A DNA stretch of 38,320 nucleotides from Lachnospiraceae bacterium (GTDB lineage: Bacteria > Bacillota > Clostridia > Lachnospirales > Lachnospiraceae), in contig JALFHZ010000057.1 in assembly GCA_022776445.1 (NCBI GenBank), forward strand, positions 1 through 38,320. The letters are read 5' to 3'. The position numbers and the translations under genes are program-made. Shown here piece by piece: positions 85 through 16,972 of the stretch (its first letter is position 1; each line of letters starts with the position of its first letter). The notes under the pieces are model-generated. The model was not told the origin of the DNA. It worked only from the letters and a program-made list of their open reading frames with translations, and made no database searches.

Positions 85-885
85 CTAAATAACATTGGCA
101 GAGTTTAACAACTCAAATAATTTCTTTGCCGATTCTTCACCGGTTGCCTCTGCAATCGTAACTCCTCCCTGCTTCTGCGGCGGGGTAAAACTCTTCTTCA
201 CCTTTGTGGGAGAACCCTTCAAACCGATTCTTGCAGCATCTACCGGAATATCATTAACAGTCAGTGTTGTGATCACTGCCCGGTTTGCAGCCATTTTCGA
301 TTTAATAGAAGGATAACGTGGATTAAAGCTCGGCTTCGTAACCGTAATCACACATGGCATTTTTGCCGCCAGGATTTCATACCCCTCTCCGGTTTCTCTT
401 TTAACCAGGACCTCATCACCTTCCACTTTTGCTTCAACTGCATAGGTAATCTGTGGACAATCCATATGCTCTGCAATCTCCGGTCCTACCTGCGCGGTAT
501 CTCCATCGATTGCCTGTTTGCCACAGAAAATCATATCAAATTTGCCTTCAAGCGTCTCGATTTTGTCAATGGCCGTCTTTAAGGTATAACTGGTAGCCAG
601 CGTATCTGCTCCGCCAAATGCACGGTCACTTACCAGATAAGCCTTATCACCACCTACAGCCAGACACTCTTTCAGTGCTGCTGTCGCCTGCTGCGGTCCC
701 ATGCTGAGAAGAATGATTTTCGTTCCCGGAACTACATCCTTAATGCGGGCAGCAATCTCCAGTGCATAAGCATCAAACGGGTTCACAATACTCGGAACAC
801 CTGCTCGAATCAATGTATTAGTAACCGGATCGATTTTAATCTCTGTTGTATCCGGAACCTGTTTCACACAAACCAAAATATTCAT
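85..885 (-). CDS. etfB: Electron transfer flavoprotein beta subunit
   Basis: 266 residues beginning MNILVCVKQVPDTTEIKID, the family signature at the N-terminus, with the full alpha/beta ETF fold region following (GPQQATAALKECLAVGGDKA, then CGKQAIDGDTAQVGPEIAEH). The length matches EtfB. The open frame extends further upstream, but the ATG at 885 starts exactly at the conserved N-terminus and has a modest GAGGG upstream. It lies 22 bp after the MaoC-type gene and 13 bp before etfA. With EtfA it should accept electrons from the acyl-CoA dehydrogenase at 1393-2544 in the cytoplasm. Confidence 0.95.
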   Translation of the reverse strand: MNILVCVKQVPDTTEIKIDPVTNTLIRAGVPSIVNPFDAYALEIAARIKDVVPGTKIILLSMGPQQATAALKECLAVGGDKAYLVSDRAFGGADTLATSYTLKTAIDKIETLEGKFDMIFCGKQAIDGDTAQVGPEIAEHMDCPQITYAVEAKVEGDEVLVKRETGEGYEILAAKMPCVITVTKPSFNPRYPSIKSKMAANRAVITTLTVNDIPVDAARIGLKGSPTKVKKSFTPPQKQGGVTIAEATGEESAKKLFELLNSANVI

Positions 886-907
886 AAAGGAATCCCTCAT
901 TTCCAAA

Positions 908-1375
908 TTATTCTTCTCCAGCAGGCGGAGCCCAGTACAACATAGTAGCCATACTTCCGATCTGGCACACTGTGCCATCCTGATTTACAATGGTATACTG
1001 GATGTTCAAAATTCCTCTGTCCGGCTTGGATTTTGACTGCTTCGCTTCCAATACTTCGATTTCACAGTGAATCGTATCACCAATCTTAATCGCACCTACA
1101 AATTTCCATTCTGTACTCAGCGCAGCAATCGCAGATCCATCTACCAGGCCCATGCGTCCCCACAGTCCGGTAGCAATACCCGCTCCCAGCAAACCATGCG
1201 CAATTCTGCTCTTAAACGGAAGGCTTTCCGCATAAGTTTTATCCGTATGGATCGGATTGTTGTCACCGGTAATACCTGCAAACAGAACCACATCCGTTTC
1301 TGTCACTGTGCGGGACAGCGTGGTAAACTTATCGCCTACATGAAACTCACTCAGATATAAATAAGAACGCTTCAT
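908..1375 (-). CDS. MaoC-like (R)-specific enoyl-CoA hydratase
   Basis: 155 residues with a hot-dog fold MaoC dehydratase domain. The catalytic Asp/His pair is seen in the segment FAGITGDNNPIH (D38 and H43). The family hydrates trans-2-enoyl-CoA to (R)-3-hydroxyacyl-CoA. The start at 1375 (MKRSYLYLSEF) is chosen because GGAGGAG stands 8 bases upstream; a longer frame to 1396 overlaps the preceding stop. It is placed directly after the acyl-CoA dehydrogenase, so it probably hydrates that enzyme's enoyl-CoA product. The chain length of the substrate is not readable from sequence. Confidence 0.88.
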   Translation of the reverse strand: MKRSYLYLSEFHVGDKFTTLSRTVTETDVVLFAGITGDNNPIHTDKTYAESLPFKSRIAHGLLGAGIATGLWGRMGLVDGSAIAALSTEWKFVGAIKIGDTIHCEIEVLEAKQSKSKPDRGILNIQYTIVNQDGTVCQIGSMATMLYWAPPAGEE

Positions 1376-1392
1376 ATCAAAATTCTCCTCCA

Positions 1393-2544
1393 TCAATATT
1401 CTTTCAGAACATGTCTGCCTACAACCATACGGCAGATCTCGGAAGTACCTTCACCAATCGTCAGCAGCTTCGCATCACGGTACATACGCTCAACCTGATA
1501 CTCATCGCACAGACCGTAACCACCCATAATCTGCAGACCCATATCACAGACACGTACACACATCTCAGAGCAGAACATTTTTGTCATGGTCGCTTCCTTA
1601 CTGAACGGCAAACCATTGTCGCTCATACGTGCCGTATTGTAAAGCATAGCACGGGCCACATCAATTTCTGTCGCCATCTCTGCCAGTTTAAATGCAATCG
1701 CCTGATTCTCGCAGATTGGCTTACCGAAAGTAACACGCTCTTTGGAATATTTGGCAGCACGCTCCAATACTCCCTGCGCCATGCCGACTGCAACCGCGGA
1801 AATCGCAACACGTCCGTCATCCACACATTTCATGAACAGCGGGAAGCCTCGATTCAGTTCACCCAGCAGGTTTTCTTTCGGAATGCGTACATCCGTAAAG
1901 GTCAGCGGGCAGGAATAGGAACTGCGGTTACTCATCTTTTCTTCCGGTTTCCCCACTTCAAAGCCAGGAAGTCCTGCCGGCACGATAAAAATGGAAATGC
2001 CTCTGCTGCCCTTTGCTTCCATATCGGTCTTTGCTGCTACAAGGAAGGTAGAAGCATAAGTGCTGTTGGTAATAAATGCCTTGGTGCCATTGATTACCCA
2101 CTCATCACCGTCCAGAACTGCCTTGGTGCGAATCTGACCGGCATCCGAACCCGACTGCGGCTCCGTCAATGCAAAAGCACATAAAGTTTCTCCCATTGCC
2201 GCCGGAACCAGATATTTCTGCTTTTGTTCTTCCGTTCCTGCCAGTAAAAGAGGAGTACTGCCCAAAGAAGCATGTGCATCAATAATAGAAGCCAGAGAAG
2301 AAGAATGACGTGCAATCTGTTCCATCACCAGAACATCACTCAGATGATCCATTCCGGCACCGCCATACTCCTCCGGCACGCAAACACCCAGAAATCCCAT
2401 TTCCGCACACTGTTTCACTTCCTCCAGCGGGAATTCATGTCTGCGATCCAGATCCGTAACCGTTGCTGCTACTACTTCATCGGCAAATTTTTTTGCCATT
2501 TCCTGTATACTCAGCTGATCTTCCGTTAAAAAATATTTGTTCAT
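1393..2544 (-). CDS. Acyl-CoA dehydrogenase (short-chain type)
   Basis: 383 residues, the standard length. The order is: N-terminal helical domain, beta domain with ALTEPQSGSDAGQIRT (FAD/substrate signature), and C-terminal helical domain with the second signature QIMGGYGLCDEYQVERMYRD. The catalytic base is Glu365 in IGEGTSEI, the position used by short-chain and butyryl-CoA dehydrogenases. It desaturates an acyl-CoA to the trans-2-enoyl-CoA and passes electrons to EtfAB, whose genes are in the same operon. AAGGAGGT precedes the ATG at 2544. The actual substrate may be a substituted or short-chain acyl-CoA. Confidence 0.95.
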   Translation of the reverse strand: MNKYFLTEDQLSIQEMAKKFADEVVAATVTDLDRRHEFPLEEVKQCAEMGFLGVCVPEEYGGAGMDHLSDVLVMEQIARHSSSLASIIDAHASLGSTPLLLAGTEEQKQKYLVPAAMGETLCAFALTEPQSGSDAGQIRTKAVLDGDEWVINGTKAFITNSTYASTFLVAAKTDMEAKGSRGISIFIVPAGLPGFEVGKPEEKMSNRSSYSCPLTFTDVRIPKENLLGELNRGFPLFMKCVDDGRVAISAVAVGMAQGVLERAAKYSKERVTFGKPICENQAIAFKLAEMATEIDVARAMLYNTARMSDNGLPFSKEATMTKMFCSEMCVRVCDMGLQIMGGYGLCDEYQVERMYRDAKLLTIGEGTSEICRMVVGRHVLKEY

Positions 2545-2577: not shown

Positions 2578-3351
2578 CTATTGTTTTCCATCATCAACAA
2601 TCTGCGGCTTCATATTCAGTCCTTTAAATACGGTATAGCCGTCATCTGCCATAACCGTGGTACCGTTAATTGCACTGGCTTCATCCAGAGACAGCAGATA
2701 GATCACATTCGCAATCTCATCCGGTTCGACAACTCTGCCTTTCATATGGAGCTTTCCTCCATACTCAATTGCTTTCTGATCCATAAGTCCGGTATTGACC
2801 CAACCGGGTGCGACAGAAACCACACGCAATCCCTGAGGCGTAAGCTCTCTGGCCAGTGCCTGAGTCAACATCTTCACTCCGCCCTTTGACACATGGTAAC
2901 CAATCGCCTCTGAATTTGCCAGATAACCGCAGATGGAGCCTACATTAATAATCACACCCCGATGTCTTTTCACCATTTCTCTGGCTGCAAACAGCGACAT
3001 ATAAATCGTTCCCATCAGGTTAATATCGATCACCTTGATGGTATCATCCAGATCTCCATCCAGAAACGGCTGCCGCTTTCCGGTCACCCCGGCTACATTC
3101 GCCAGAATATCCACTCTTCCGTATTTTTCTGCTGCAAACTGAACGGTTTTCTCGCATTCTTCCCGGGATGTAATATTACAGAAATGGTAACTGACCTCAC
3201 CATACTGTTTTAACTGCTCTATTGCCGCATCTGCTTTTTCTTTGGGATCATTGCTTACCACAACTACGCGATCCCCGTTCTTCAGAAATTTTCGGGCGGT
3301 AGCCTGACCAATCCCGCTGGTCCCTCCAGTGACAATCACAACCCTGTCCAT
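2578..3351 (-). CDS. Short-chain dehydrogenase/reductase (SDR)
   Basis: 257 residues, classical SDR. The cofactor motif TGGTSGIG is at residues 8-15, NVAG is near residue 89, and the catalytic YHVSK motif is preceded by the serine in VGSICGY. The start at 3351 (MDRVVIVTGG) has GGAGG about 10 bases upstream; the longer frame to 3378 would place the binding site inside the gene. In this operon it most likely oxidises a hydroxyacyl-CoA or hydroxy acid with NAD(P). It is only moderately similar to the second SDR at 9550-10308, so the two are probably not interchangeable. Confidence 0.88.
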   Translation of the reverse strand: MDRVVIVTGGTSGIGQATARKFLKNGDRVVVVSNDPKEKADAAIEQLKQYGEVSYHFCNITSREECEKTVQFAAEKYGRVDILANVAGVTGKRQPFLDGDLDDTIKVIDINLMGTIYMSLFAAREMVKRHRGVIINVGSICGYLANSEAIGYHVSKGGVKMLTQALARELTPQGLRVVSVAPGWVNTGLMDQKAIEYGGKLHMKGRVVEPDEIANVIYLLSLDEASAINGTTVMADDGYTVFKGLNMKPQIVDDGKQ

Positions 3352-3393
3352 AACTGTAACCTCCTTATCTGTGTACATCAGCCATCACTGTTT

Positions 3394-3957
3394 TCACAGA
3401 TGTCTGCCAAATTCATAAGCCTGTTCCAGATAACCGGTCTCTCCGATACATCTGTCTGACTTGGTTCCTCCGCAGTTCCCGGCCATGAGCACTCCCAGAT
3501 CGATCCAGCGCAGATAACGAACCAGCCTTCGATAATACTGCTCCACACTTTCAAATACCCAGAAATGCTTTTCCGTATCTGCTGCTGTGACTAACAGTAC
3601 ACTCTTTTTCACTGGATATCGATAATACCCTTTCGGATCTGCCCGTCCCAGTGAATACAAACGGTCAATCACAGCCTTCAGCTGTGCACTCATACCCCAA
3701 AAGTACAGAGGTGTTGCAAGCACAACCACATCACTGGTCAAAAATGCCGATGCAAATTCCTGAAATCCGTCCTTCTGCACACAACCAGATTCTTTCCGGC
3801 AGACATTGCAACCCAGACACGGATTGATTCTGGTTTTTCCAAGGTGAATTCGTGTAACCTGATGCCCGTTTTCCATGGCACCTTTTCCAAATGCCTCCGC
3901 CAGCTTATCAGTATTCCCCTGCATTCTGGCAGAACCGACAACTATGAGTATATTCAT
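3394..3957 (-). CDS. Iron-sulfur flavoprotein / NADPH-dependent FMN reductase family protein
   Basis: 187 residues with a flavodoxin-like fold: N-terminal ILIVVGSARMQGNTDKLA (FMN phosphate loop) and TPLYFWGMSAQLKAVIDR. A compact cysteine cluster C47-x2-C50-x2-C53-x5-C59 matches the CX2CX2CX4-7C pattern of archaeal and clostridial iron-sulfur flavoproteins, suggesting a 4Fe-4S cluster plus FMN. Its operon position beside an acyl-CoA dehydrogenase suggests an electron-transfer role or detoxification of oxidants during acid breakdown. GGAGGT lies 13 bases before the ATG, and the gene starts 4 bp after the ligase stop codon. Confidence 0.82.
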   Translation of the reverse strand: MNILIVVGSARMQGNTDKLAEAFGKGAMENGHQVTRIHLGKTRINPCLGCNVCRKESGCVQKDGFQEFASAFLTSDVVVLATPLYFWGMSAQLKAVIDRLYSLGRADPKGYYRYPVKKSVLLVTAADTEKHFWVFESVEQYYRRLVRYLRWIDLGVLMAGNCGGTKSDRCIGETGYLEQAYEFGRHL

Positions 3958-3961
3958 AAAG

Positions 3962-5626
3962 CTATCTGTCCACCTCCGCCTTATAAGAGGCTGCCATCTC
4001 CTTTAGACGAAACTTCTGCACTTTTCCCGTTGAGGTACGAGGCCAATCTGCTTCCTTCATATAAATAAAATATTTAGGTACCTGAAATTTCGCCAAGTGT
4101 TCCCGGCTGTAGTTCTCTGCGCGTTCTCTGTTTTCCGGGATATCCTCATGAAGCTGAATGAAAGCTGCACCTACATAGCCACGTTTCTCATCCGGAACCC
4201 CCACGATTTCCACGTTGTTGATCTCCGGACAATTCCCTAAAACATCTTCCAGAAACTTTGGTGAAACATTTTCACCGTTGATCTTATACATATCATCTAC
4301 GCGCCCGGCTAAAATCAGATATCCAGCCTCATCAAAACATCCGCAGTCCCCGGTTCTAAACCAACCGTCCTGTGTAAATACACGTGCATTTGCCTCCACC
4401 CGATTAAAATATCCACGGGTCACAACGGCTCCGCGACACCATAACTCACCAATCTCACCCGGTGCACAGTCCACACCGGTTTTCTGATCGACTACCCGAT
4501 ACGCAATCTGGTGTCCTCCCAGCTCCGGATATCCGCTGCTGCCGCTAGGCAGCAGCTTTCCTACTCGTGTCCCAAGTACCGTATCTGTATCTTCCGGTGC
4601 CGTCTGCATGGACGCACCGCTGACCTCCGTCATTCCGTAACCAGTGATAACATCCTGCACTTCAAGAGCATCACGGATCCCCGGCCAAACCCACGAAGGA
4701 CAGATTGCCGCAGAACAATATACTGCATGAAGCTCCGGTAGCTTTCTTGGCTTTTCTTTCAAATAATGGATCAGCGTCATCATCTGAGAAGGAACACTTA
4801 AAATATCGTTTGCACGGCTCTCCTGCATAAAATCCAGCACCGGTTCCGCTGTAAATTTACCACGTCGAAGCAGAACTGCACCGCCCACCAATATGGCAGC
4901 CAACATTCCTTCCACATAACCATAAACATGAAACATTGGCAGCGGAACGAATATCCGTCTCCCCAGCTCAAACCCCCGATTCAGACAGTTTGCAAACGCA
5001 CTGCGCATCAGCATATCGTGAGTAAGCATAACACCTTTGGGAGCTTTCGTACTGCCGGAGGTATAAATGATATCGGATACCTCATCCGCATACTGCTGTC
5101 CTTCGCTGTCCGGAAGAATCTGTCCCTCTTCAGCAGCAAGAAACTCATTCCAGAAAAGGACAGGAATATCCACTTCGCATCTGGCTTCAGGAAGGGCAAT
5201 GATTTGCTTTAAACAGTTTTCTTTATCTTCCAGTCTGATCTGACAACCTGTAACCAGATACTGTGATTCGGACTGTCTAAGTATAAAACTCAGTTCTTTA
5301 GCACCCAGAGATGTATTGACAGGAACCTTAACCGCCCGAACTGCCGTTATGGCCAATGCAACAAAGGCCTGTTCCGGGCAATTTTCAATCTGCATAGCCA
5401 CATGATCCCCTGGACGGACACCTGCTGCCACAAGTCCGCGGGCAATGCGGAGCACTTCTTCTTTTGTCTGTCGATATGTATAGCTTCCATGCCCCGCAGC
5501 CACTACAAATTCCTTATCCGGGAATCGCTCTGTCGTTGCCTCAAAAAACTTCCAGATTGTTTTTTTCTCCCATACGGGGTAGAGCCTGTCAAGCTCCGCC
5601 TGCCGCTCATTTATGAACCCCTTCAT
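3962..5626 (-). CDS. AMP-dependent acyl-CoA synthetase/ligase
   Basis: 554 residues of the ANL adenylating superfamily. The P-loop motif YTSGSTKAPKG is near residue 195; TGYGMTEVSG, GWFRTGDCG (ATP ribose Asp) and YKINGENVSP (hinge) follow, and RTSTGKVQKF holds the C-terminal catalytic Lys. The family activates a carboxylic acid to acyl-AMP and then acyl-CoA. The general look is of the crotonobetaine/medium-chain ligase branch. AGGAG is 6 bases before the ATG at 5626, so that start is preferred to an in-frame TTG at 5632. With the CoA-transferase at 8204-9514, the operon has two ways to load CoA onto its substrate. Confidence 0.9.
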   Translation of the reverse strand: MKGFINERQAELDRLYPVWEKKTIWKFFEATTERFPDKEFVVAAGHGSYTYRQTKEEVLRIARGLVAAGVRPGDHVAMQIENCPEQAFVALAITAVRAVKVPVNTSLGAKELSFILRQSESQYLVTGCQIRLEDKENCLKQIIALPEARCEVDIPVLFWNEFLAAEEGQILPDSEGQQYADEVSDIIYTSGSTKAPKGVMLTHDMLMRSAFANCLNRGFELGRRIFVPLPMFHVYGYVEGMLAAILVGGAVLLRRGKFTAEPVLDFMQESRANDILSVPSQMMTLIHYLKEKPRKLPELHAVYCSAAICPSWVWPGIRDALEVQDVITGYGMTEVSGASMQTAPEDTDTVLGTRVGKLLPSGSSGYPELGGHQIAYRVVDQKTGVDCAPGEIGELWCRGAVVTRGYFNRVEANARVFTQDGWFRTGDCGCFDEAGYLILAGRVDDMYKINGENVSPKFLEDVLGNCPEINNVEIVGVPDEKRGYVGAAFIQLHEDIPENRERAENYSREHLAKFQVPKYFIYMKEADWPRTSTGKVQKFRLKEMAASYKAEVDR

Positions 5627-5668
5627 ACGCAACTCCTATCATCCTGATCTTTGCCTAGGAACAAGATA

Positions 5669-6958
5669 TTAACCTATGGGATACATAATCCCTGCCAGTA
5701 TAATCGCCTCTATCAGAATGATAATGGAACCGACTACCGTAATTGCAAACAAATGCTTATAACCTTCCTTATGCGTCAATCCGCAGCATGCTAATACAGT
5801 AACCATAACACCGTTATGTGGCAGAGAATCCAGTGTAATACATGCACAGGAAGCAATCTTATGCAACACACCTGCATTGACGCCCATTTCCAGATATTTC
5901 GGTGCCAGAGTCTCCAGTGCCAGAGTTAAACCGCCAGAACCGGAACCACATGCAGCAGAGAGCAGCGAAGTTCCGATCGAGAAGGAAATCAGCGGAGAAC
6001 CGCCCATACTGGTAGCAACATCCACCAGAGTTGTATAACCTGCAGTCAGCTTTGCAACACCGCCAAAACCAACAACTGCTGAAGTAGCCAGAATAGCTCC
6101 CATTGCATCACTTACACCACAGTTGAGAATTTCAATCTTATTATCAATTCTCTTCCAGTACAGAACAGCGATAGCAATCCAGCCTAACAGCAGGGAATAA
6201 AGAACATCCACACCAAAGAATAACGGAACAACAACCAGTGCCAGCGGAATAAATGCAATAACTCCATTGCCATGTTCCTTCTTTTCATATTCTTCCATCA
6301 TTTTAGCAGTAGCTGCATCTACACTGAAATGTTCACCATTTTTGCGTGCAACCTTCTCCTGCCAAATACAGTAGAGTGTAGCCAAAATAAAGAAGGAAGC
6401 AGCAATAATTGCTGAATAAACCGGTAAAATAGTTGGTGAGGTACCAAGATACTTCACCGGAATATTGTTAACAACAGAAGGAGAACCCGGTCCTATATTA
6501 ACAGCGGTAAAACATCCAGCCGCTACAACTGCAGGAATCAAATGCCGCGGTAAATCAGCCTTTTTAAACATATTCAAAGCAATCGGATACATAACAAATA
6601 CGATAACATAACAGGATACACCTCCGTACCCAAGAACCAATGTCGTCAGGCAGAGAACAGCGATTGTAAATTTTGTCCCAAGCTTTTCAGTCAGCAGGTT
6701 TGCCAAATCCTCTGCACCGCCTCCCAACTGCATAGCTTTACCAAAACTGGCGCCCAGGAAAATCAGCGGCCAGTAGCTCTTGATATAGCCGACAAACGCT
6801 CCCATATAATCGCTGGTCAGACAGTCATACACATTCAGTCCTGACATAAGAGCCATTAATCCTGTACAAATCAGTGCGGAAACAGCAATATTAACTCGCT
6901 TCCAGATAAGAAATACCAAAAACAACAGAGGGATCACAATTGCTAAAACACTTAACAT
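5669..6958 (-). CDS. GntP-family carboxylate permease
   Basis: 429 residues, almost entirely hydrophobic, with about 12 predicted membrane spans. Family-like features are the loop around GGAEDLANLL, NIGPGSPSVVNNIP, and the C-terminal SAACGSGSGG and TLDSLPHNG segments of GntP/CitMHS-type carriers. Members move gluconate, hydroxybutyrate and other small organic acids by proton symport. GGAGGT precedes the ATG at 6958. The location in a CoA-activation/beta-oxidation operon suggests import of a short hydroxy- or keto-acid such as 3-hydroxybutyrate, which is an inference from context. Confidence 0.85.
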   Translation of the reverse strand: MLSVLAIVIPLLFLVFLIWKRVNIAVSALICTGLMALMSGLNVYDCLTSDYMGAFVGYIKSYWPLIFLGASFGKAMQLGGGAEDLANLLTEKLGTKFTIAVLCLTTLVLGYGGVSCYVIVFVMYPIALNMFKKADLPRHLIPAVVAAGCFTAVNIGPGSPSVVNNIPVKYLGTSPTILPVYSAIIAASFFILATLYCIWQEKVARKNGEHFSVDAATAKMMEEYEKKEHGNGVIAFIPLALVVVPLFFGVDVLYSLLLGWIAIAVLYWKRIDNKIEILNCGVSDAMGAILATSAVVGFGGVAKLTAGYTTLVDVATSMGGSPLISFSIGTSLLSAACGSGSGGLTLALETLAPKYLEMGVNAGVLHKIASCACITLDSLPHNGVMVTVLACCGLTHKEGYKHLFAITVVGSIIILIEAIILAGIMYPIG

Positions 6959-6987: not shown

Positions 6988-8196
6988 TTATTTAAATTTC
7001 TTGTTCATTTTTAATGCTGCAAAGCATAAAATCGCTGCAAGAATACTGCACACAGCTGCAAAAAGAAATGCACCTGAATAACTGTCCGTAGAGTTTTTGA
7101 TCGAAGTCGCCATATTGGGACCTACAATCGAAGCAATACCATAACCAGTAAAAATAATACTGTAATTGATTCCGTTATACTTCGGACCAAAGGTATCAGA
7201 ACATAAAGCAGAAAAGGTAGCAAGCGTTCCACCAAAACAAACTCCTGTAAGCACAATTGCTGCCACAAATCCCATGAAAGTGGATGTCCGTGACAAGAAA
7301 ATCATATCCACCGCACACAGCAGCATCACACCAATCACAACCTGATGACGCCCAAGTACATCCGATAAAGACCCGAGTGCCAGTCTTCCGCCAAAATTGG
7401 CCACAGCCATAATCCCTACCAACAGCGCAGCCTCGGCGGCTGTAATTCCGGCTACCTCCTGACCAATCCTGGATGCATGTCCGATAAGCATTAATCCGGC
7501 AACAGAAGCGCACAGCAGTGTTGCCCAAAGCAGATAGCAACGAGGATCCTGAAGCATTTCTCTCCATGTTTTACCGCCGCTTACTGCAGTCGTTTGCGGC
7601 GGCACATATCCCTCCGGTTTCCATCCTGGTTCTGGCCCGTCGATATACCAGGAAGTTGCCAGAGAGATGATGAGAAAAAGCCCTCCCACCATGCGAAATG
7701 CTGTCATGACATTAAATCTTGTCAAAAGGAAATTTGCTAACGGTGCCACAATCAGGGATGCCATCCCGCATACACCTACAGCCATTCCGGATGCAAATCC
7801 CTTCTTATCCGGAAACCAGCTGACGGCTGTCACAACTCCAGGATTATAACCAAAACCGGAGGCACAGCCTGCCAGTATGCCAAAGCTTATGTAAAGCATC
7901 AGAATACTTCCGGCAAATCCCGTTGCCAGCCAGCCAAGTCCCCACATAATACCGGCTGCAATCATCAGTCTGCGGGCTCCAAAGCGCTGAAGCAACGCTC
8001 CTCCCACAAGTCCCATTGCCGCAACCACCATTAACATAATGGAATAGGCAATCGTAACCTTGCTGTAATCCCATCCCATATAATTTGCAAGATCACCGGA
8101 AAATGCACTCCAGGCATATACGCCACCGAAGCAGAAAGTATTACAGCAGATGCAAAAAAGCACAAGCCAACGATTTTTCTGTTTCTTTTTTTCCAT
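6988..8196 (-). CDS. Major facilitator superfamily transporter, oxalate/formate antiporter (OFA) type
   Basis: 402 residues with 12 membrane spans. The N-terminal NRWLVLFCICCNTFCFGGVYAW and GCASGFGYNPGVVTAVSWFP are characteristic of the OFA subfamily, which exchanges or imports small carboxylates. AAAGGA precedes the ATG at 8196, and only 7 bp separate it from the CoA-transferase gene. Having two unrelated carriers in one operon suggests either separate uptake and product export or two substrates. Confidence 0.88.
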   Translation of the reverse strand: MEKKKQKNRWLVLFCICCNTFCFGGVYAWSAFSGDLANYMGWDYSKVTIAYSIMLMVVAAMGLVGGALLQRFGARRLMIAAGIMWGLGWLATGFAGSILMLYISFGILAGCASGFGYNPGVVTAVSWFPDKKGFASGMAVGVCGMASLIVAPLANFLLTRFNVMTAFRMVGGLFLIISLATSWYIDGPEPGWKPEGYVPPQTTAVSGGKTWREMLQDPRCYLLWATLLCASVAGLMLIGHASRIGQEVAGITAAEAALLVGIMAVANFGGRLALGSLSDVLGRHQVVIGVMLLCAVDMIFLSRTSTFMGFVAAIVLTGVCFGGTLATFSALCSDTFGPKYNGINYSIIFTGYGIASIVGPNMATSIKNSTDSYSGAFLFAAVCSILAAILCFAALKMNKKFK

Positions 8197-8203
8197 AGTA
8201 TCT

Positions 8204-9514
8204 TTATCCTTTCAGAGGAATCAACCCCATCTCTTTTGCCTTATCCGTCAGCTCCTCTCTGAACTTCGGATGAGCAATAGCAATCAAAGCCTCTGCACGC
8301 TGACGAACTGTCTTATATCTCAAAGCTGCAATACCATATTCTGTAACAATATAATCTACGTCATAGCGGGAAACCGTCGTAATATTACCCGGCTGAAAAT
8401 ACGGTACAATCTTGGAAATCGTATCGTTTTTTGCCGTAGAATTTAATGCAATGATGGATTTTCCTCCTTCACTAATCTGCGCGCCACGAACATGATCTAA
8501 CTGACCGCCAATACCGCTATACTGTCGTCCATTAACAGTCTCCGAATTGACCTGTCCCTGAAGATCCACCTCCAGACAACCATTGATAGAAGTCTGCTTA
8601 TAATTCTGACCAATAATATAAGGATCATTCACATAATCCACCGGCTGCATCTGGAACATCGGATTATGGTCAATAAACTTATAGAAATCCAGGCTGCCTG
8701 CCGCTTGCGCTCCAATACAAACTCCCGGGTTCAAAGTCTTTCTCTTATTGGTGATAACGCCTGCCTGAACCAATTCCATCATAGCTTCTGTCAACGTCTC
8801 CGAATGAACCCCCAGATCTTTCTTTCCCATCAGATTGCGGGCAATTGCATCCGGTAACGCACCGATTCCTAACTGAATCGTTGCTCCGTCTTCAACGAGA
8901 CTTGCACAGTAATCAGCAATCTTCTGAATCTTCTCACTTGGCTCAGCACGACCAATGGTATACAGCGGAGAAGTTGCCTCCACAATGTAGTCAGCCTTAG
9001 CCAGTTCAAACAGCTTACCTCCTGTAAAAGGCATATCCGGATTTACCTGAGCAATGATACGATCTGCTGTTCTGGCCGCCGGCTCTGTGAAACAACAGGT
9101 ATTGCCAAAACTGCACATACCATCCTCATTGGGAGGTGTAACCTGAATTAATGCCCAATGCGGATTCAGATCCGGATTTTTTGCAAACATATCTGGCCAG
9201 TTGTGGAAATTCGTTCCTCCAAGATAATCTACCCGACCTTCATGATAAGCTGCCCGTGACTTCGGTCCAATAAATAAAGAGATGTGATGAAAATGTCCGA
9301 CATACTTCTCCTCTACATACTTATTCGGTCCCGGGCTCATGCCATGAACGATCGTCACATTTTCCAATTCTTCATAACGATCAACCAACGCCTCTACCAA
9401 CGCCGGCGGTTCACCGATCCAGTCTGCAAAAATGATTTTTTCTCCGGATTTAATATGGCTGACCGCCTCAGCCGCAGTCGTCATTTTATCTCTATATTTT
9501 TCACGCCAATCCAT
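8204..9514 (-). CDS. Acetyl-CoA hydrolase/transferase family CoA-transferase (4-hydroxybutyrate/butyrate type)
   Basis: 436 residues, the length of the 4-hydroxybutyrate and butyryl-CoA:acetate CoA-transferases. The expected catalytic glutamate is E239 in GVHSET. Also present are IQLGIGALPDAIARNL and the C-terminal GIGGQLDHVRGAQ that binds CoA in this family. The enzyme transfers CoA from acetyl-CoA (or another acyl-CoA) to a carboxylate in the cytoplasm. AAGGAG precedes the ATG. It is probably the energy-saving activation step for the imported acid. Confidence 0.92.
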   Translation of the reverse strand: MDWREKYRDKMTTAAEAVSHIKSGEKIIFADWIGEPPALVEALVDRYEELENVTIVHGMSPGPNKYVEEKYVGHFHHISLFIGPKSRAAYHEGRVDYLGGTNFHNWPDMFAKNPDLNPHWALIQVTPPNEDGMCSFGNTCCFTEPAARTADRIIAQVNPDMPFTGGKLFELAKADYIVEATSPLYTIGRAEPSEKIQKIADYCASLVEDGATIQLGIGALPDAIARNLMGKKDLGVHSETLTEAMMELVQAGVITNKRKTLNPGVCIGAQAAGSLDFYKFIDHNPMFQMQPVDYVNDPYIIGQNYKQTSINGCLEVDLQGQVNSETVNGRQYSGIGGQLDHVRGAQISEGGKSIIALNSTAKNDTISKIVPYFQPGNITTVSRYDVDYIVTEYGIAALRYKTVRQRAEALIAIAHPKFREELTDKAKEMGLIPLKG

Positions 9515-9549: not shown

Positions 9550-10308
9550 TTAGAACAAGCAATTTCCACCATCTTCGATCCAGGTCTGTCCCGTGCAATA
9601 AGAAGCTTCATCAGAGCCCAGGAACAATGCAACCGAAGTGGCCTCATCCGGTTCTCCAAAACGTCCGAGCGGAATATTCCGAAGAAACATTTCACAACGT
9701 TCCGGATTATGTCTGGTTCCTTCCGTAAGTCTGGTAGCATGTGTTCCAGGACCAAATGCACATACGCGGATTCCGTATTTTGCCATTTCCAGCGCTGCAA
9801 ACTTCGTTAACATTGTCACACCGCCTTTGCTTGCAGCATACGCACCGGTATTCGGAGAAACAATCTGTGATGCGACAGAACTTGTATTAACTACCACACC
9901 CTTAATCCCCTTATCTACCATGTGTCGTAAAACTGCCTGTGAAACAAAGAATGTACCATTCAGATTGATGTCGATCACTCGACGCCACTGCTCCTCTGTA
10001 CTGTCAAGGAACGACTGACGTCCAATAACTCCCGCAATATTAAAGAGAGCGTCAATATGCTCATAATGCTCAATCACAGCTGCAATTGCCGCATCTACAC
10101 TGGCTTTAGAAGAAACATCGCAGGAAACACAAAAAACTTTTTCCTCCTGTCCGGAAAATTCTTTTTCCATCGTTTCTTTTTCAAGATCCAGAGCTGCCAC
10201 GAAAGCTCCCTCTTCCACCAGCCGGTTCGCCAGGTTCAACCCCAGCCCATTTGCCGCACCGGTAACAACACAAACCTTTCCAATGTAACGATGATGCTCG
10301 TAATGCAT
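9550..10308 (-). CDS. Short-chain dehydrogenase/reductase (SDR), first gene of the operon
   Basis: 252 residues, classical SDR with TGAANGLG (NAD(P) binding), NIAG, catalytic Ser in NTSSVASQ and YAASK, ending in the usual IEDGG segment. The start at 10308 has AGGGGGA 8 bases upstream. It is the first gene after the sigma-54 promoter. Its shape is like 3-hydroxybutyrate or 3-hydroxyacyl-CoA dehydrogenases, so it may act on the imported hydroxy acid or the product of the MaoC-type enzyme; the substrate is inferred from context only. Confidence 0.88.
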   Translation of the reverse strand: MHYEHHRYIGKVCVVTGAANGLGLNLANRLVEEGAFVAALDLEKETMEKEFSGQEEKVFCVSCDVSSKASVDAAIAAVIEHYEHIDALFNIAGVIGRQSFLDSTEEQWRRVIDINLNGTFFVSQAVLRHMVDKGIKGVVVNTSSVASQIVSPNTGAYAASKGGVTMLTKFAALEMAKYGIRVCAFGPGTHATRLTEGTRHNPERCEMFLRNIPLGRFGEPDEATSVALFLGSDEASYCTGQTWIEDGGNCLF

Positions 10309-10366: not shown

Positions 10367-10383
10367 AGCAATACGCATGCCAA
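10367..10383 (-). promoter_or_regulatory. Sigma-54 (-24/-12) promoter of the acid-utilisation operon
   Basis: Read on the minus strand the site is TTGGCATGCGTATTGCT. It matches the consensus TGGCACG-N4-TTGC at every position except one (T for C), with GG and GC exactly 12 bases apart. It lies 59 bp upstream of the first SDR start, predicting transcription from about 10356. Two sigma-54-dependent activators are encoded immediately on the other side of the intergenic region, which supports the call. Confidence 0.9.
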
Positions 10384-10536
10384 GTTTTCATTTATAGCAT
10401 TAATTTTGACACTGTAAACTGCTAAAATCAATAATTTTGGGCTTAAAATCATACAACTCCTAATCAAAAACATAAAAATTTTCTAAATTTTTCCATTTGC
10501 AATGATTAACAATTAACAAACAATATTTTAATATTC

Positions 10537-10592
10537 TTGACTTTTTTCAACAACTGTACTAAATTTAGGATAGTAATTGACTTTTTTCAACA
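10537..10592. repeat. Pair of identical 16-bp repeats, candidate activator binding sites
   Basis: The 16-bp sequence TTGACTTTTTTCAACA occurs at 10537-10552 and again at 10577-10592, 40 bp apart (about four helical turns). Each copy contains the dyad TTGA-N6-TCAA. They lie about 155-225 bp upstream of the sigma-54 promoter, a normal distance for enhancer sites of a sigma-54 activator, and also inside the promoter region of the activator genes. TTGACT could instead serve as a -35 box (TTGACT-N17-TAAATT at the first copy). The enhancer role is inferred. The rest of 10384-10536 is AT-rich with no gene. Confidence 0.6.
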
Positions 10593-10618: not shown

Positions 10619-12022
10619 ATGCATCCGAAATCTCCGCACATCCGTATGCGAGATCTGGCACGAGTTTACGATTCGCTTGAATTCGGACTAATTATTACTA
10701 CCGGCAACGGAACTATTATCTGGGGAAATCGTTACTACAGCAAACTTGCCCAATTCGATATCCGCGATTACTTTGGCCGCAATGTTCGAGAAATATCACA
10801 GCACGAAGATGTCTCGCTTGCAACAGAAACCCTGATTATTGACACCGTCCTGAAAACAAAGCAGCAGCAAACCGAAATTGTTCGCTACCGAACAAAAGAC
10901 TATACTCTGACGACAGCGACTCCTATTCTGAATGAACAAAATGAAATTGATTTCATTATCTATTCCATTACCAACTACAACGAACTAATGCGCCTTCAGG
11001 AAAAAGTATCCCAGTCCACAATGCGGGTATTAGCTCTGAAGACACATCTGAAAAATATTCAAATTGATCAACATATTGGCAATGATATTATTATTGCAGA
11101 TACTAAAATGTACAACATTTATGGAAAGGCGCTGCGTCTTGCCACCACATCGGTATCTGTCATGCTGACAGGAGAATCCGGAACCGGTAAAGATGTTCTG
11201 GCAAAATTTATTCATCAAAGCAGTCTGCGCAAAGATGAAAACTTTATTCATGTCAATATGGCTACAATACCGAAAGCATTATTTGAGTCAGAACTATTCG
11301 GATATGAACCCGGTGCTTTTACCGGAGCTGCCAGACATGGCAAGATCGGTCTGATCCAGTTAGCTGATAAGGGAACACTTTTTTTGGATGAAATTGGTGA
11401 ACTTCCGCTGGATATTCAGGCGAAGCTCTTACAGGTCATTCAGAATAAAGAAGTTCGTTCTATTGGTGCACTGGAAACCACACCTGTGGATTTCCGCATT
11501 ATCTGCGCCACAAACCGTGACTTACAGCAAATGGTTAAAAACCATGAATTCCGACTTGACCTCTACTACCGACTGAACACAGTAGAACTGATGATTCCTC
11601 CCCTGCGCGAACGACATGATGATATTCCTTTGCTCGCCACTCATTTTCTGAATCACTATAATAAAGTAAACAATACAAAAAAATTTTTCTCAAGTGACGT
11701 GCTTCGCCTGTTTTATAAATACCCATGGCCCGGAAATGTACGTGAACTGCAGCATGTTATTGAAAGTCTTGTAGTACTTTGCCCCACGCAGACAATTACA
11801 GCCGATCAGCTGCCAGATGAATTTCAGATCTTAGAATTTGCAGACCCCATCTCTTCGCCTGCCCGATTTGATGAGCTGACATTAAAACAATCCCTGGAAC
11901 TGCTGGAATCTCATTTGATTAAAAAGGCACTCGAAAGCACTGCTTCTGCCGCTCAGGCAGCAAAAGAACTTGGAATCGATGCATCAACCTTGTCGAAAAA
12001 GAGGAAACACTATGGATTATAA
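10619..12022 (+). CDS. Sigma-54-dependent transcriptional activator with PAS-like sensor domain
   Basis: 467 residues. Residues about 12-120 look like a PAS domain (EFGLIITTGNGTIIWGN), followed by a short coiled linker. The AAA+ domain has Walker A GESGTGKD (185-192), an intact GAFTGA sigma-54 contact loop (232-237), Walker B LFLDEIGEL and the arginine region FRLDLYYRLN. The C-terminal Fis-type helix-turn-helix is AAQAAKELGIDASTLSKKRK. AGGGGGAG precedes the ATG at 10619; the open frame to 10577 runs into the upstream repeat and is not used. It is divergent from the operon it most likely activates, with the PAS domain presumably sensing the imported acid or its CoA ester. Confidence 0.93.
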   Translation: MHPKSPHIRMRDLARVYDSLEFGLIITTGNGTIIWGNRYYSKLAQFDIRDYFGRNVREISQHEDVSLATETLIIDTVLKTKQQQTEIVRYRTKDYTLTTATPILNEQNEIDFIIYSITNYNELMRLQEKVSQSTMRVLALKTHLKNIQIDQHIGNDIIIADTKMYNIYGKALRLATTSVSVMLTGESGTGKDVLAKFIHQSSLRKDENFIHVNMATIPKALFESELFGYEPGAFTGAARHGKIGLIQLADKGTLFLDEIGELPLDIQAKLLQVIQNKEVRSIGALETTPVDFRIICATNRDLQQMVKNHEFRLDLYYRLNTVELMIPPLRERHDDIPLLATHFLNHYNKVNNTKKFFSSDVLRLFYKYPWPGNVRELQHVIESLVVLCPTQTITADQLPDEFQILEFADPISSPARFDELTLKQSLELLESHLIKKALESTASAAQAAKELGIDASTLSKKRKHYGL

Positions 12023-13016
12023 ACAGGAATTCCAGCAAGAGGATCTCGTTCTGCACGCTCCCTCTATGATTCAGATCTATCAAAAAGCAAAGATGCTCGC
12101 TAATAAACATGCTTCTGTTCTCATATACGGAGAAACCGGTGTAGGAAAAAACCATCTGGCAAAATACATTCAACAAAGCGGTACCCTAGCTCAGGCTCCC
12201 TTTGTCCCGATTCACTGTAATGCTATTCCTTCCGAATTGTTTGCTTCAGAGCTATTTGGATACTCTCCCAACGCATTTACGGGAGCTGCTGCCAAAGGTA
12301 AGACCGGTCTGTTGGAAGCTGCCAATCATGGTACAGTTTTATTTGATGAAATCGATGAGCTATCATCAGAAAATCAGACATTACTGCTTCACTTTTTACA
12401 GAATAAAACCATCACTCCTCTCGGCTCTCTGAAAAGTCGAACAATCAATGCGCGAGTTATCTGCATTTCTGGTCGAGATCTGCGTAAAATGGTCAATGAA
12501 GGTAGCTTCCGCCTTGATTTATATTATCGCATCTGCGTTGCAAACATCTGTATTCCTCCGCTGCGTGAACGTCGGGAAGAAATTCCTGATTTTATCAACT
12601 ATTACATTCGAAAATATGCAGCTGAATATAACTGTAATCATGAAAATCTCATCATTCCGACCGATAAAATGGAAGCGTTATCTCAATTGGATTGGCTTGG
12701 AAACATTCGCGAGATCATAAATTTTGCACAGCAGATCTGCCTTACAGAAGATATTGCCCAAACTATTGATACTTACACCCAGCGGCAAAACTCGCTTTCA
12801 CAAAAAAATATGGGACTAATTAATGAGAGCAGTTACCCACCTTTGACAATAAAAACACTGAAAGACGCGGTACAAGATTTTGAACGCGGCTATATAACCG
12901 CTATCATTTCAGAATCAGAAAATCTTCACATCGCTGCTAAACGACTGGGAATCAGTTTCAGTACACTTTGCAGAAAAAAATCAGAACTGGGAATCAAACA
13001 AAAATGTCAGCATTAA
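12012..13016 (+). CDS. Sensorless sigma-54 activator-like AAA+ protein, second of a tandem pair
   Basis: 334 residues: almost no N-terminal domain, then AAA+ with Walker A GETGVGKN (40-47), Walker B TVLFDEIDEL, the arginine region FRLDLYYRIC and a Fis-type helix-turn-helix near the end (AAKRLGISFSTLCRKK). The sigma-54 contact loop reads NAFTGA (87-92) rather than GAFTGA. The start at 12012 has GAGGAAACACT upstream and overlaps the end of the first activator by 11 bp in another frame, implying coupled translation. It looks like a diverged paralogue of its neighbour and could form mixed hexamers, as HrpR/HrpS do; that is inference. Confidence 0.88.
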   Translation: MDYKQEFQQEDLVLHAPSMIQIYQKAKMLANKHASVLIYGETGVGKNHLAKYIQQSGTLAQAPFVPIHCNAIPSELFASELFGYSPNAFTGAAAKGKTGLLEAANHGTVLFDEIDELSSENQTLLLHFLQNKTITPLGSLKSRTINARVICISGRDLRKMVNEGSFRLDLYYRICVANICIPPLRERREEIPDFINYYIRKYAAEYNCNHENLIIPTDKMEALSQLDWLGNIREIINFAQQICLTEDIAQTIDTYTQRQNSLSQKNMGLINESSYPPLTIKTLKDAVQDFERGYITAIISESENLHIAAKRLGISFSTLCRKKSELGIKQKCQH

Positions 13017-13127: not shown

Positions 13128-13148
13128 TCGTTTTATAAAAAGCGTTGA

Positions 13149-13434
13149 ACAGGACACGATTTCTTTTCCACTGCGTTTTCAGAGAGCTGCCGTATGGTGT
13201 GAGGCCGCATCGCAAAAAGGAAATTATCCCCTGTGAGCTGATCGAGCGAACCACGTTCCGTTGTTCCAGTAACCCGATCCGGATTCCTACCGTTACAGAG
13301 GAGCATATTTACCGGTTTTCTCTTTCAGCAGACCGGAGATATGACCAAGTGACCGAATATTGTATTCGGTAATAAGAAGTGGTACCGCGGGAGCTTATGC
13401 CCTCGTCTTCTTTTCAGGAAGACGGGGGCTTTTT
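13149..13434 (+). ncRNA. T-box riboswitch leader (specifier probably ATC, isoleucine)
   Basis: Stem I base ACAGG (13149-13153) pairs with CCTGT (13230-13234). Above it TTTCC pairs with GGAAA (13219-13223), and TGCG (13172-13175) with CGCA (13211-13214). The AGAGAG and GGTGTGAGG segments typical of the distal stem are present. The specifier loop on the 3' side is TTATCC, and by analogy with glyQS the codon one base before the basal helix is ATC (13226-13228). Stem III is CCGAATA/TATTCGG (13353-13369). The T-box GTGGTACCGCG is at 13379-13389, and the terminator follows at 13399-13434. Uncharged tRNA would pair with TGGT and let transcription continue into cstA. Confidence 0.9.
13399..13434 (+). 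terminator. Rho-independent terminator of the T-box leader
   Basis: Twelve base pairs (GCCCTCGTCTTC with GAAGACGGGGGC, one G-T wobble), loop TTTTCAG, then TTTTT. It is mutually exclusive with the antiterminator that uses the T-box sequence just upstream. Confidence 0.92.
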
Positions 13435-15545: not shown

Positions 15546-16748
15546 TTACATCATAAGCACCTTCACGGCATCCCCCGGCTTGAGAGGCCCATTTCCAGCC
15601 GGAATATCAATCAGACAGTTACTGTGACACACCGTACTGAGTGTGCCATTTTTACTCAAACCATCGGTTACCGCTGCTTTCCCATTGTCATACCTGGCAC
15701 GAACAAATCGCCTTGCCTTTGTAATCTTGTTAAATTCATTCTCCATAATGGCGTCACACCACGTAAGTTCCATTCTCTTATCGCCCGCCAGCCTGCTGAT
15801 GGCAGGCTTTACAAACAGCTCCGCAGTGACCACGACACCAAATGGATTTCCTGACAATGACACAACAGGCGTATCTTCATAAATGCCCGCGAGCGTCGGC
15901 ATGCCCGGCTTAATGCTTACCCGCCAAAATATTCTCTCGGCACCGAGAATCTCATAGACGTCATGCATGATATCCTTCTTGCCCACAGATACTCCGCCGG
16001 TTGTCACAATAAGATCCGACTTTTTTGCATATTCACGAATCAATGCCGCCGCATTTTCCGGATCATCGCCACTGTTTCCTGCATACATGATCTCTGCTCC
16101 CCATTTCAAAAGATTCATCTGCATAAGGGGCAGATTGGAATCATAAATGGCACCCGGTCTTAAGGCTTCTCCGGGCTTTAACAGTTCATCCCCCGTTGAC
16201 AGGATAACTACACGTGGTCTTCTCAAAACCTTCACAAAAGACTGCCCGATACTGGCAATGACACCAATACAGGCAGGAGTCAGAATATCTCCCGTTCTCA
16301 AAAGTACGGTATCTTTCTTAAAATCCTCACCCTGTTCGCAAATATTTTGACCTGCTGAAAGAGCCTTGTAGATTTCTACCTCTTCTTCCCCATAATCAGT
16401 ATCTTCCTGCAAAACCACACAATCCGCTCCCGGCGGAATGGGTGCTCCGGTCATGATCCTGATGGCTGTTCCGGGTTCCACCCGAGCATCCACCTGATAG
16501 CCCGCCATCTCCTCTGCAATCACCTTGAGCCTGACAGGATGCTCCTTGTCCGCTTCTTTTATATCTGCGCTTCTCAAAGCATATCCATCAAGAGGTGACC
16601 GTGGAAATGGCGGCTGATCAAAGGGTGCTGTCACATCCTGTGCAAGCACTTTCCCTCCTGCTTCGAGAATGGATACCGTCTCCGTATCCTCAATTTTTTT
16701 AATTTTGTTAAGTAAAAGCTCCAGTGCTTCTTCATATGCCAACTTCAT
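15546..16748 (-). CDS. moeA: Molybdopterin molybdenumtransferase
   Basis: 400 residues with the MoeA domain order: N-terminal PFDQPPFPRSPLDGYALRS, RIMTGAPIPPGADCVV, the central MoaB/Mog-like domain with STGDELL and VTTGGVSVGKKD, SLSGNPFG, and the C-terminal domain. It inserts molybdate (or tungstate) into adenylated molybdopterin. The start at 16748 has GGAG 8 bases upstream; the longer frame to 16811 is not preferred. A structured leader at about 16872-16950 suggests cofactor feedback control. No molybdoenzyme gene is visible in the window. Confidence 0.95.
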   Translation of the reverse strand: MKLAYEEALELLLNKIKKIEDTETVSILEAGGKVLAQDVTAPFDQPPFPRSPLDGYALRSADIKEADKEHPVRLKVIAEEMAGYQVDARVEPGTAIRIMTGAPIPPGADCVVLQEDTDYGEEEVEIYKALSAGQNICEQGEDFKKDTVLLRTGDILTPACIGVIASIGQSFVKVLRRPRVVILSTGDELLKPGEALRPGAIYDSNLPLMQMNLLKWGAEIMYAGNSGDDPENAAALIREYAKKSDLIVTTGGVSVGKKDIMHDVYEILGAERIFWRVSIKPGMPTLAGIYEDTPVVSLSGNPFGVVVTAELFVKPAISRLAGDKRMELTWCDAIMENEFNKITKARRFVRARYDNGKAAVTDGLSKNGTLSTVCHSNCLIDIPAGNGPLKPGDAVKVLMM

Positions 16749-16871
16749 TTTTCTGTCTCCAAACAACAAAAATAGCATCCTTTTGTCATAAAAATAGAAT
16801 TTTCCTATCACAAAAAGACGCCAATGCGAATTACATTAACTGTAAAATTATCAGATGCTTCTTTTCAATAA

Positions 16872-16950
16872 GGAAGGCTGTGCCGTTTCCAACACCACCC
16901 CGGCCAGAGTCCCATAGCATATGCCTTAGGCACCCAGGCTCGAAGTTCTA
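16872..16950 (-). ncRNA. Structured moeA leader, candidate molybdenum-cofactor riboswitch
   Basis: On the minus strand, a six-pair hairpin GTGTTG-GAAA-CGGCAC (16896-16881) carries a GAAA tetraloop. About 17 nt upstream the exact 11-nt tetraloop-receptor sequences CCTAAG (16931-16926) and TATGG (16917-16913) flank GCATATGC. GGCC-rich helices surround both. A tetraloop docking into its receptor implies a compact folded RNA. Its position upstream of moeA makes the Moco (or tungsten cofactor) RNA class the first candidate; I could not align it to the class from memory, so the class is inferred. No clear terminator was found between it and moeA. Confidence 0.6.
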
Positions 16951-16972
16951 ATTCAGTATTCATTTTTTTATA

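Follow-up and report, generated by a model that had tools for sequence, protein, structure and literature searches.

Heteromeric sigma-54 activators are known, if rarely reported, and include HrpR/HrpS, FleQ/FleT, RedR1/RedR2 and the VnfA proteins (PMC9542535). HrpR and HrpS of Pseudomonas syringae are two paralogous, co-dependent activators that make up one mixed ring (PMC7057263, PMC4145663). FleQ and FleT of Rhodobacter sphaeroides are likewise hetero-oligomeric, one partner being reduced (PMC9542535, PMC7277832), and VnfA1, VnfA2 and VnfA3 of Azotobacter vinelandii are interacting, sensor-bearing paralogues, with VnfA1 and VnfA3 sharing targets (PMC9542535). Here we describe a tandem pair of sigma-54 activator genes, A and B, in a stretch of 38,320 nucleotides from a Lachnospiraceae bacterium (GenBank assembly GCA_022776445.1, contig JALFHZ010000057.1; the whole stretch is referred to as the window). 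Heteromeric activators as such are known; what appears new, judged from the residues compared below, is a pair in which the motor of one partner looks defective. In the open-licence literature covered by our limited search, no natural partner with a degenerate ATP site was described.

Architecture and relatives of the gene pair

The pair and its shared bases are located as follows, where the close pairs are those of the window and of four further genomes, G163, G173, G174 and G799:

10619..12022, forward strand: gene A, a sigma-54 activator with PAS, AAA+ and Fis-type helix-turn-helix (HTH) domains (467 aa, ATG at 10619; named catalytic motifs canonical)
codons 11312-11329, forward strand: GAFTGA of gene A
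12012..13016, forward strand: gene B, a sensorless AAA+ and Fis-type HTH paralogue of A (334 aa, ATG at 12012; degenerate ATP site)
12012..12022, forward strand: overlap of A and B, 11 bp, with the identical 11 bases in all five close pairs

In protein A, PAS-type matches within residues 12-119 are followed by Sigma54_activat (158-324), an AAA lid (330-403) and a Fis-type HTH (425-465). In protein B the Sigma54_activat match runs from residue 14 on, which therefore leaves no space for a sensor; its Walker A reads GETGVGKN and its HTH spans approximately residues 281-328. The Sigma54_activat scores (PF00158, cut-off 20.2 bits) are 218.3 bits for A (E 6.6e-65) and 179.5 bits for B (E 5.6e-53). 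Given these E-values and the conservation of the pair, the tandem arrangement is more than chance. The original prediction, made from the window alone, had described A as carrying a PAS-like domain and a canonical GAFTGA, B as lacking a sensor and having a Walker A ending in GKN and an NAFTGA loop, and the genes as overlapping by 11 bp; domain matches and motif positions confirm these descriptions, and the overlap proved to be conserved. Upstream of the B start, a ribosome-site-like AGAGGAAAC is found in four of the five close pairs and AAAGGAAAC in G799.

Besides A and B, the window genome (G000) holds three strong and six weaker PF00158 matches above the cut-off, and sigma-54 (PF04552) is encoded in all four genomes searched (G000, G163, G173 and G174). 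The top NCBIfam match of both proteins is PrdR (NF041552; A 394.6 bits, B 254.3 bits). We rejected this identity, since both scores lie far under the curated equivalog cut-off of 795 bits; no prd-type genes were seen among the neighbours searched.

The pair resembles HrpR/HrpS in that paralogous genes lie side by side, and a mixed ring of that type is plausible for A and B. However, both Hrp proteins are described as sensorless and as carrying all characteristic motifs (PMC7057263), whereas in the present pair A carries a PAS domain and the ATP site of B is degenerate. The HrpR/HrpS precedent invoked in the original prediction consequently holds as an analogy of working and fails as one of composition. 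Similarly, FleT is reported without a sensor and without a DNA-binding domain (PMC3162934), whereas B keeps its HTH. All three VnfA proteins carry GAF domains, and the account cited for them mentions no ATP-site loss (PMC9542535).

The close pairs outside the window come from G163 (same genus), G173 (locus L011), G174 (L012) and G799. Identity to the window proteins is approximately 53-60% for B (for G799 over residues 1-247 only) and 70-75% for A (for G799 over part of the protein). A distant pair lies in G803, a larger genome and a relative of G173 (L133, 333-2849, reverse strand), with a 117-nt gap where the close pairs overlap. Identity to window A is 48.5% for the first protein of this pair. 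By BLAST, the second protein shares 37.7% identity with window B and 44.8% with window A; a separate comparison gave 36.8% with window B, 42.8% with window A and 45.3% with the A protein of G803. Since it is closer to A than to B, the grounds for equating it with B are gene order, absence of a sensor and the tree. Window B was searched against overlapping sets of 150 genomes of the family, 24 of the genus, 395 relatives and 398 of the phylum, and further against 61 and 395 relatives of G173, with one pattern scan of genome contigs, and the G803 protein was used as query against 145 relatives of G803. Most homologue searches had strict E-value limits (1e-58 to 1e-75), and across all these searches no close pair was found beyond G163, G173, G174 and G799, the only distant pair being that of G803.

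ATP site and loop 1 of the second protein

To compare residues, five close B and six A rows were aligned to 96 background activators. The first alignment held 97; L038 and L041 were later dropped and L124 was added. The dropped rows L041 and L038 show 10 and 6 deviations, respectively, including loop and arginine-finger losses, and seven rows of at most 90 bits were excluded from the background and examined separately. The positions in B that matter for the comparison are, all on the forward strand:

12147..12152: Walker A lysine K46 (kept) and N47, the latter at the position of PspF E43
12213..12215: residue 68, switch asparagine (PspF N64 position) changed to H
12270..12287: loop 1, NAFTGA, with F, T and the second G kept in all five close B
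12381..12383: residue 124, conserved lysine changed to L (NtrC1 K250 position, by counting from the alignment)
12468..12473: sensor I Thr-Asn changed to Ser-Gly in all five close B
12510..12530: arginine-bearing hand (R-hand) R167-x-D169-x-x-x-R173, kept in all five close B
12708..12710: sensor II arginine R233, kept in the window and G163, changed to W in G173, G174 and G799

At the position directly following the Walker lysine, E43 in PspF (function described in PMC3419264), 88 of the 96 background activators have E or D and every close B has N. The switch asparagine, part of the N64-E108 switch of PspF (PMC7057263, PMC4132715), is N in 92/96 of the background and in all six A, and reads H, H, Y, F and Y in the B proteins of the window, G163, G173, G174 and G799. 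The lysine that follows Walker B at the NtrC1 K250 position (K in 89/96) is L in all five, and the sensor I asparagine, at a site whose contacts are described from NtrC1 simulations (PMC9020082), is G in all five (N in 95/96). The sensor II arginine, invariant in the background (96/96), is W in three of the five. In contrast to these losses, all five close B retain the Walker lysine and aspartate, the F, T and second G of the loop, and the equivalents of PspF R162, D164 and R168, which belong to its RxDxxxR hand (PMC3419264). The Walker B glutamate is retained in four of the five and is D in G174.

Among 55 columns conserved to at least 90% in the background, all five B depart at nine and at least three of them at 14; at least one of the six A departs at six. 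The G803 second subunit departs at five and is canonical at the named ATP-site positions. The switch asparagine, the sensor I asparagine and the other cis residues expected of a complete activator are present in A and incomplete in B. By this measure, B is an activator paralogue by descent and not a complete activator. It seems to have reached naturally a state like that of PspF rings engineered in the glutamate switch (N64S/E108Q plus wild type), which are active; those mixed rings are engineered linked dimers carrying N64S (PMC4132715), whereas B is a second gene with H, Y or F at this position plus the loss of sensor I.

Loop 1 itself turned out to be a lesser matter. NAFTGA had been put forward as the defining oddity of B, a view that the proposed alignment of orthologous pairs partly refutes: the first loop residue is N in the B proteins of the window, G163, G173 and G799, so that three of four close orthologues keep it, and G174 restores GAFTGA. 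The second subunit of G803 has GAFTGS. The A loops read GAFTGA in the window and G803 and GSFTGA in G173, G174 and G799; the A gene of G163 (L046/L134, 1294-2703, reverse strand) has HSFTGA, so that position 1 varies in A too. G173 encodes, besides its A-B pair, a full-length activator with NAFTGA and otherwise no deviation at the sites checked (L057, 1489-3003, reverse strand). In the 97-row background there are 58 GAFTGA, 16 GSFTGA and one NAFTGA loops, while a survey of clostridial activators counts exact GAFTGA in 355 of 490, variants in 100 and 11 sensorless proteins (PMC6615313), and N at loop position 1 is listed for activators elsewhere (PMC3162934). NAFTGA is thus an uncommon but tolerated variant, and we rejected it as the key feature of B. 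A parallel with NorR G266N was also dropped: with F264 and G266 both in the motif, G266 is position 5 and not position 1. The earlier suggestion that B partners A without itself driving open-complex formation fits the ATP-site losses combined with the kept RxDxxxR, and the loop is not the reason for it.

Both A and B have the F and T of loop 1 intact, as sigma-54 activators do. Loss of the GAFTGA loop is the feature by which sigma-54-independent AAA+ relatives of the TyrR/DhaR type are told apart (PMC3162934), and in a rough alignment six of seven low-scoring activator relatives lack it. We therefore rejected B as a generic degenerate of that kind. In the alignment, L006 (G000:C205), L039, L040, L042, L043 and L045 have no GAFTGA loop and have lost several ATP-site residues; they are perhaps sigma-54-independent.

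In a 36-row tree, whose bootstrap was unsettled (0.974), A forms one group (97/94), the A and B rows, twelve in all, form another that includes it (96/95), and the second subunits of all six pairs group less firmly (91/86); a quick 108-row tree gave 93 for A, 87 for B and 95 for both. That the five B and the G803 second subunit share one origin is favoured and not established, as the alternative position beside A was not rejected (approximately unbiased test, p 0.15). The five B share a long stem branch (1.15-1.55 changes per column). Ratios of nonsynonymous to synonymous change (dN/dS, Nei-Gojobori) in the comparisons among G173, G174 and G799 are 0.16, 0.14 and 0.17 for B and 0.07, 0.11 and 0.12 for A; these are three non-independent comparisons with dS already at 1.2-1.5, the three involving the window being saturated, and dN is inflated for the A gene of G799, which is truncated at the 5' side and opens with some foreign codons. 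On these values, B is under purifying selection and somewhat less constrained than A. Because the distant G803 pair has a canonical second subunit beside a homologous operon, the decay of the ATP site of B is probably secondary. The simplest account of these data, which do not prove it, is that a gene was duplicated in tandem and that B then decayed in one lineage.

The divergent operon and its regulatory region

Upstream of A, an operon of ten genes runs in the opposite direction. Its genes and the putative regulatory elements between it and A are:

9550..10308, reverse strand: short-chain dehydrogenase, first gene of the operon
8204..9514, reverse strand: acetyl-coenzyme A (CoA) hydrolase/CoA-transferase family
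6988..8196, reverse strand: monocarboxylate-type major facilitator superfamily (MFS) transporter (380.8 bits; NCBIfam L-lactate MFS cut-off 320)
5669..6958, reverse strand: GntP-family permease
3962..5632, reverse strand: AMP-forming acyl-CoA ligase
3394..3957, reverse strand: flavin mononucleotide reductase/flavodoxin-like protein
2578..3378, reverse strand: second short-chain dehydrogenase
1393..2544, reverse strand: acyl-CoA dehydrogenase
908..1396, reverse strand: MaoC-like hydratase
85..978, reverse strand: electron transfer flavoprotein domain protein
10368..10382, reverse strand: sigma-54 -24/-12 element TGGCATGCGTATTGC, facing the operon
10537..10550, forward strand: palindrome TTGACTTTTTTCAA, first copy of a putative enhancer pair
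10577..10590, forward strand: second copy of the putative enhancer, 40 bp start to start from the first

By gene content, the operon would encode a beta-oxidation-like set for some carboxylic acid. Homologues of eight of its ten genes adjoin the A-B pair in G163 and, in changed order, in G803; for G173 and G174 the figure is seven of ten, with no MFS gene seen at this place. The 4.8-kb contig of G799 is uninformative on this point.

The strict sigma-54 element matches once in the window, where 0.39 matches would be expected, and 32 of 100 shuffles contained at least one; because chance matches are this frequent, its weight lies in its place and conservation. It scores the full 24 in G163, 22 of 24 in G173 and G174, and only 19 in G803, where it was not found as such. 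More specifically for the palindromes, a twin TTGA-N6-TCAA with at most one mismatch each recurs in all five intergenic regions examined, at spacings of 40, 40, 38, 38 and 42 bp in the window, G163, G173, G174 and G803. A single palindrome is not rare (three in the window against 1.3 expected). The twin pair appears in 0.05-0.65% of Markov samples per region, by a criterion set after the window had been seen. The exact palindrome pair occurs at one place each in G000, G173 and G174 and nowhere in G163, G799 and G803. The twin palindromes resemble binding sites and may be those of A, B or both.

Downstream of B, the CstA-like transporter gene at 13548 was considered as a target of A and B and rejected: it has its own T-box leader (13136-13413, forward strand; 106.4 bits, cut-off 93), and another gene follows B in G173, G174 and G799. 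The contig of G163 ends approximately 300 bases past B. Farther on lies a molybdenum/tungsten cofactor riboswitch (16842-16957, reverse strand; 66 bits, cut-off 36), upstream of a candidate MoeA gene (15546-16811, reverse strand).

A mixed ring and its alternatives

In the reading that we favour, A and B are translated together and act as dedicated sigma-54 activators of the divergent acyl-CoA-catabolism operon. A would sense a signal through its PAS domain and carry working ATP sites, and B would be a former activator whose own site has decayed, with little or no ATP hydrolysis. At the twin palindromes, which both proteins would bind, B would join A in a mixed ring; its RxDxxxR hand would reach the ATP site of an adjacent A, and its loop 1, with F and T, would contact sigma-54. 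That such rings form, with A burning ATP, B supplying loop and arginine contacts, and a positive net effect of B, we believe about as much as we doubt. An all-B ring would have no canonical ATP sites, and the conserved R-hand therefore suggests that B sits next to a subunit whose site works, A being the likeliest. PspF rings in which wild type alternates with E108Q or N64S remain active, whereas those that combine wild type with the T86A loop mutant do not activate (PMC4132715). The residues missing from B are accordingly those that such rings can do without, and the residues that it retains are those that they need. The stronger claim, a natural obligate two-protein ring in which a sensing, ATP-burning subunit is joined by a partner without ATP turnover that donates arginine fingers and loops, is tentative, and we lean slightly against it.

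Several points weigh against the mixed ring. PspF N64S mixed rings strongly favour pre-melted DNA (PMC4132715), and arginine-finger variants failed to complement the ATPase of PspF N64Q (PMC3419264). At the site of PspF R122, which acts in trans, 80/96 of the background have R, all five B have H and all six A have Q, and the contrast between cis loss and trans retention comprises few sites. The kept R-hand and loop may be structural, and a weak B ATPase is possible, since Walker K and D are kept and the catalytic glutamate is present in four of five. The background was taken from loci returned as best matches and hence leans canonical. Furthermore, there are just five close pairs, mostly in fragmentary assemblies (two titled metagenome-assembled genomes), and the B gene of G799 (L137, 2094-3050, forward strand), on a 4.8-kb contig, is missing the linker and the first part of the HTH, through a deletion or an assembly fault.

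The same N64Q result means that a switch-defective neighbour may block rather than help, which keeps alive a model in which B is a dominant-negative attenuator. By entering the rings of A or sitting on the palindromes, it would dampen activation and so set a threshold or provide autoregulation. The decay of its ATP site would suit this role, and a weak sigma-70-like -35 for A (9/12 matches) falls on the first palindrome; sites of such quality number six against 1.9 expected, with a better one (11/12) elsewhere at 10406. However, pure damping needs neither the F, T and G of the loop nor the R-hand, all kept in every close B, and we consider this model unlikely. B could instead be an independently competent homohexameric activator with altered ATP-site chemistry, built on the Walker N, the H/Y/F switch and the Ser-Gly sensor I. 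The intact loop, the Walker lysine and aspartate in all five B with the glutamate in four, the low dN/dS and the listing of N at loop position 1 in other activators (PMC3162934) are compatible with this. PspF N64Q is described as highly defective for ATPase (PMC3419264), though, and the differing switch residues together with sensor II W in three of five are what decay, not one fixed chemistry, would be expected to leave; such competence is improbable.

A role outside the ring, in which B binds the palindrome as a DNA-binding or recruitment helper of A homohexamers, would account for the kept HTH, whose second-helix region is like that of A in the alignment, and for two palindromes per promoter. 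It leaves the conservation of R-hand and loop 1 unexplained, and we regard it as very improbable. That B is a decaying pseudogene is barely credible: its faster evolution along the stem branch and the deletion in G799 would fit, but the frame is open in all five, dN/dS is 0.14-0.17 and specific sites are spared.

How many of a ring's six subunits must hydrolyse ATP, and which of them can differ, has been addressed with engineered PspF chains and by cryo-electron microscopy (PMC4132715, PMC12054792). A natural pair with one motor-defective partner, its loop and R-hand spared, would bring this question within reach of experiments on two small proteins and a single promoter, with the G803 pair as the comparison that has a canonical second subunit.

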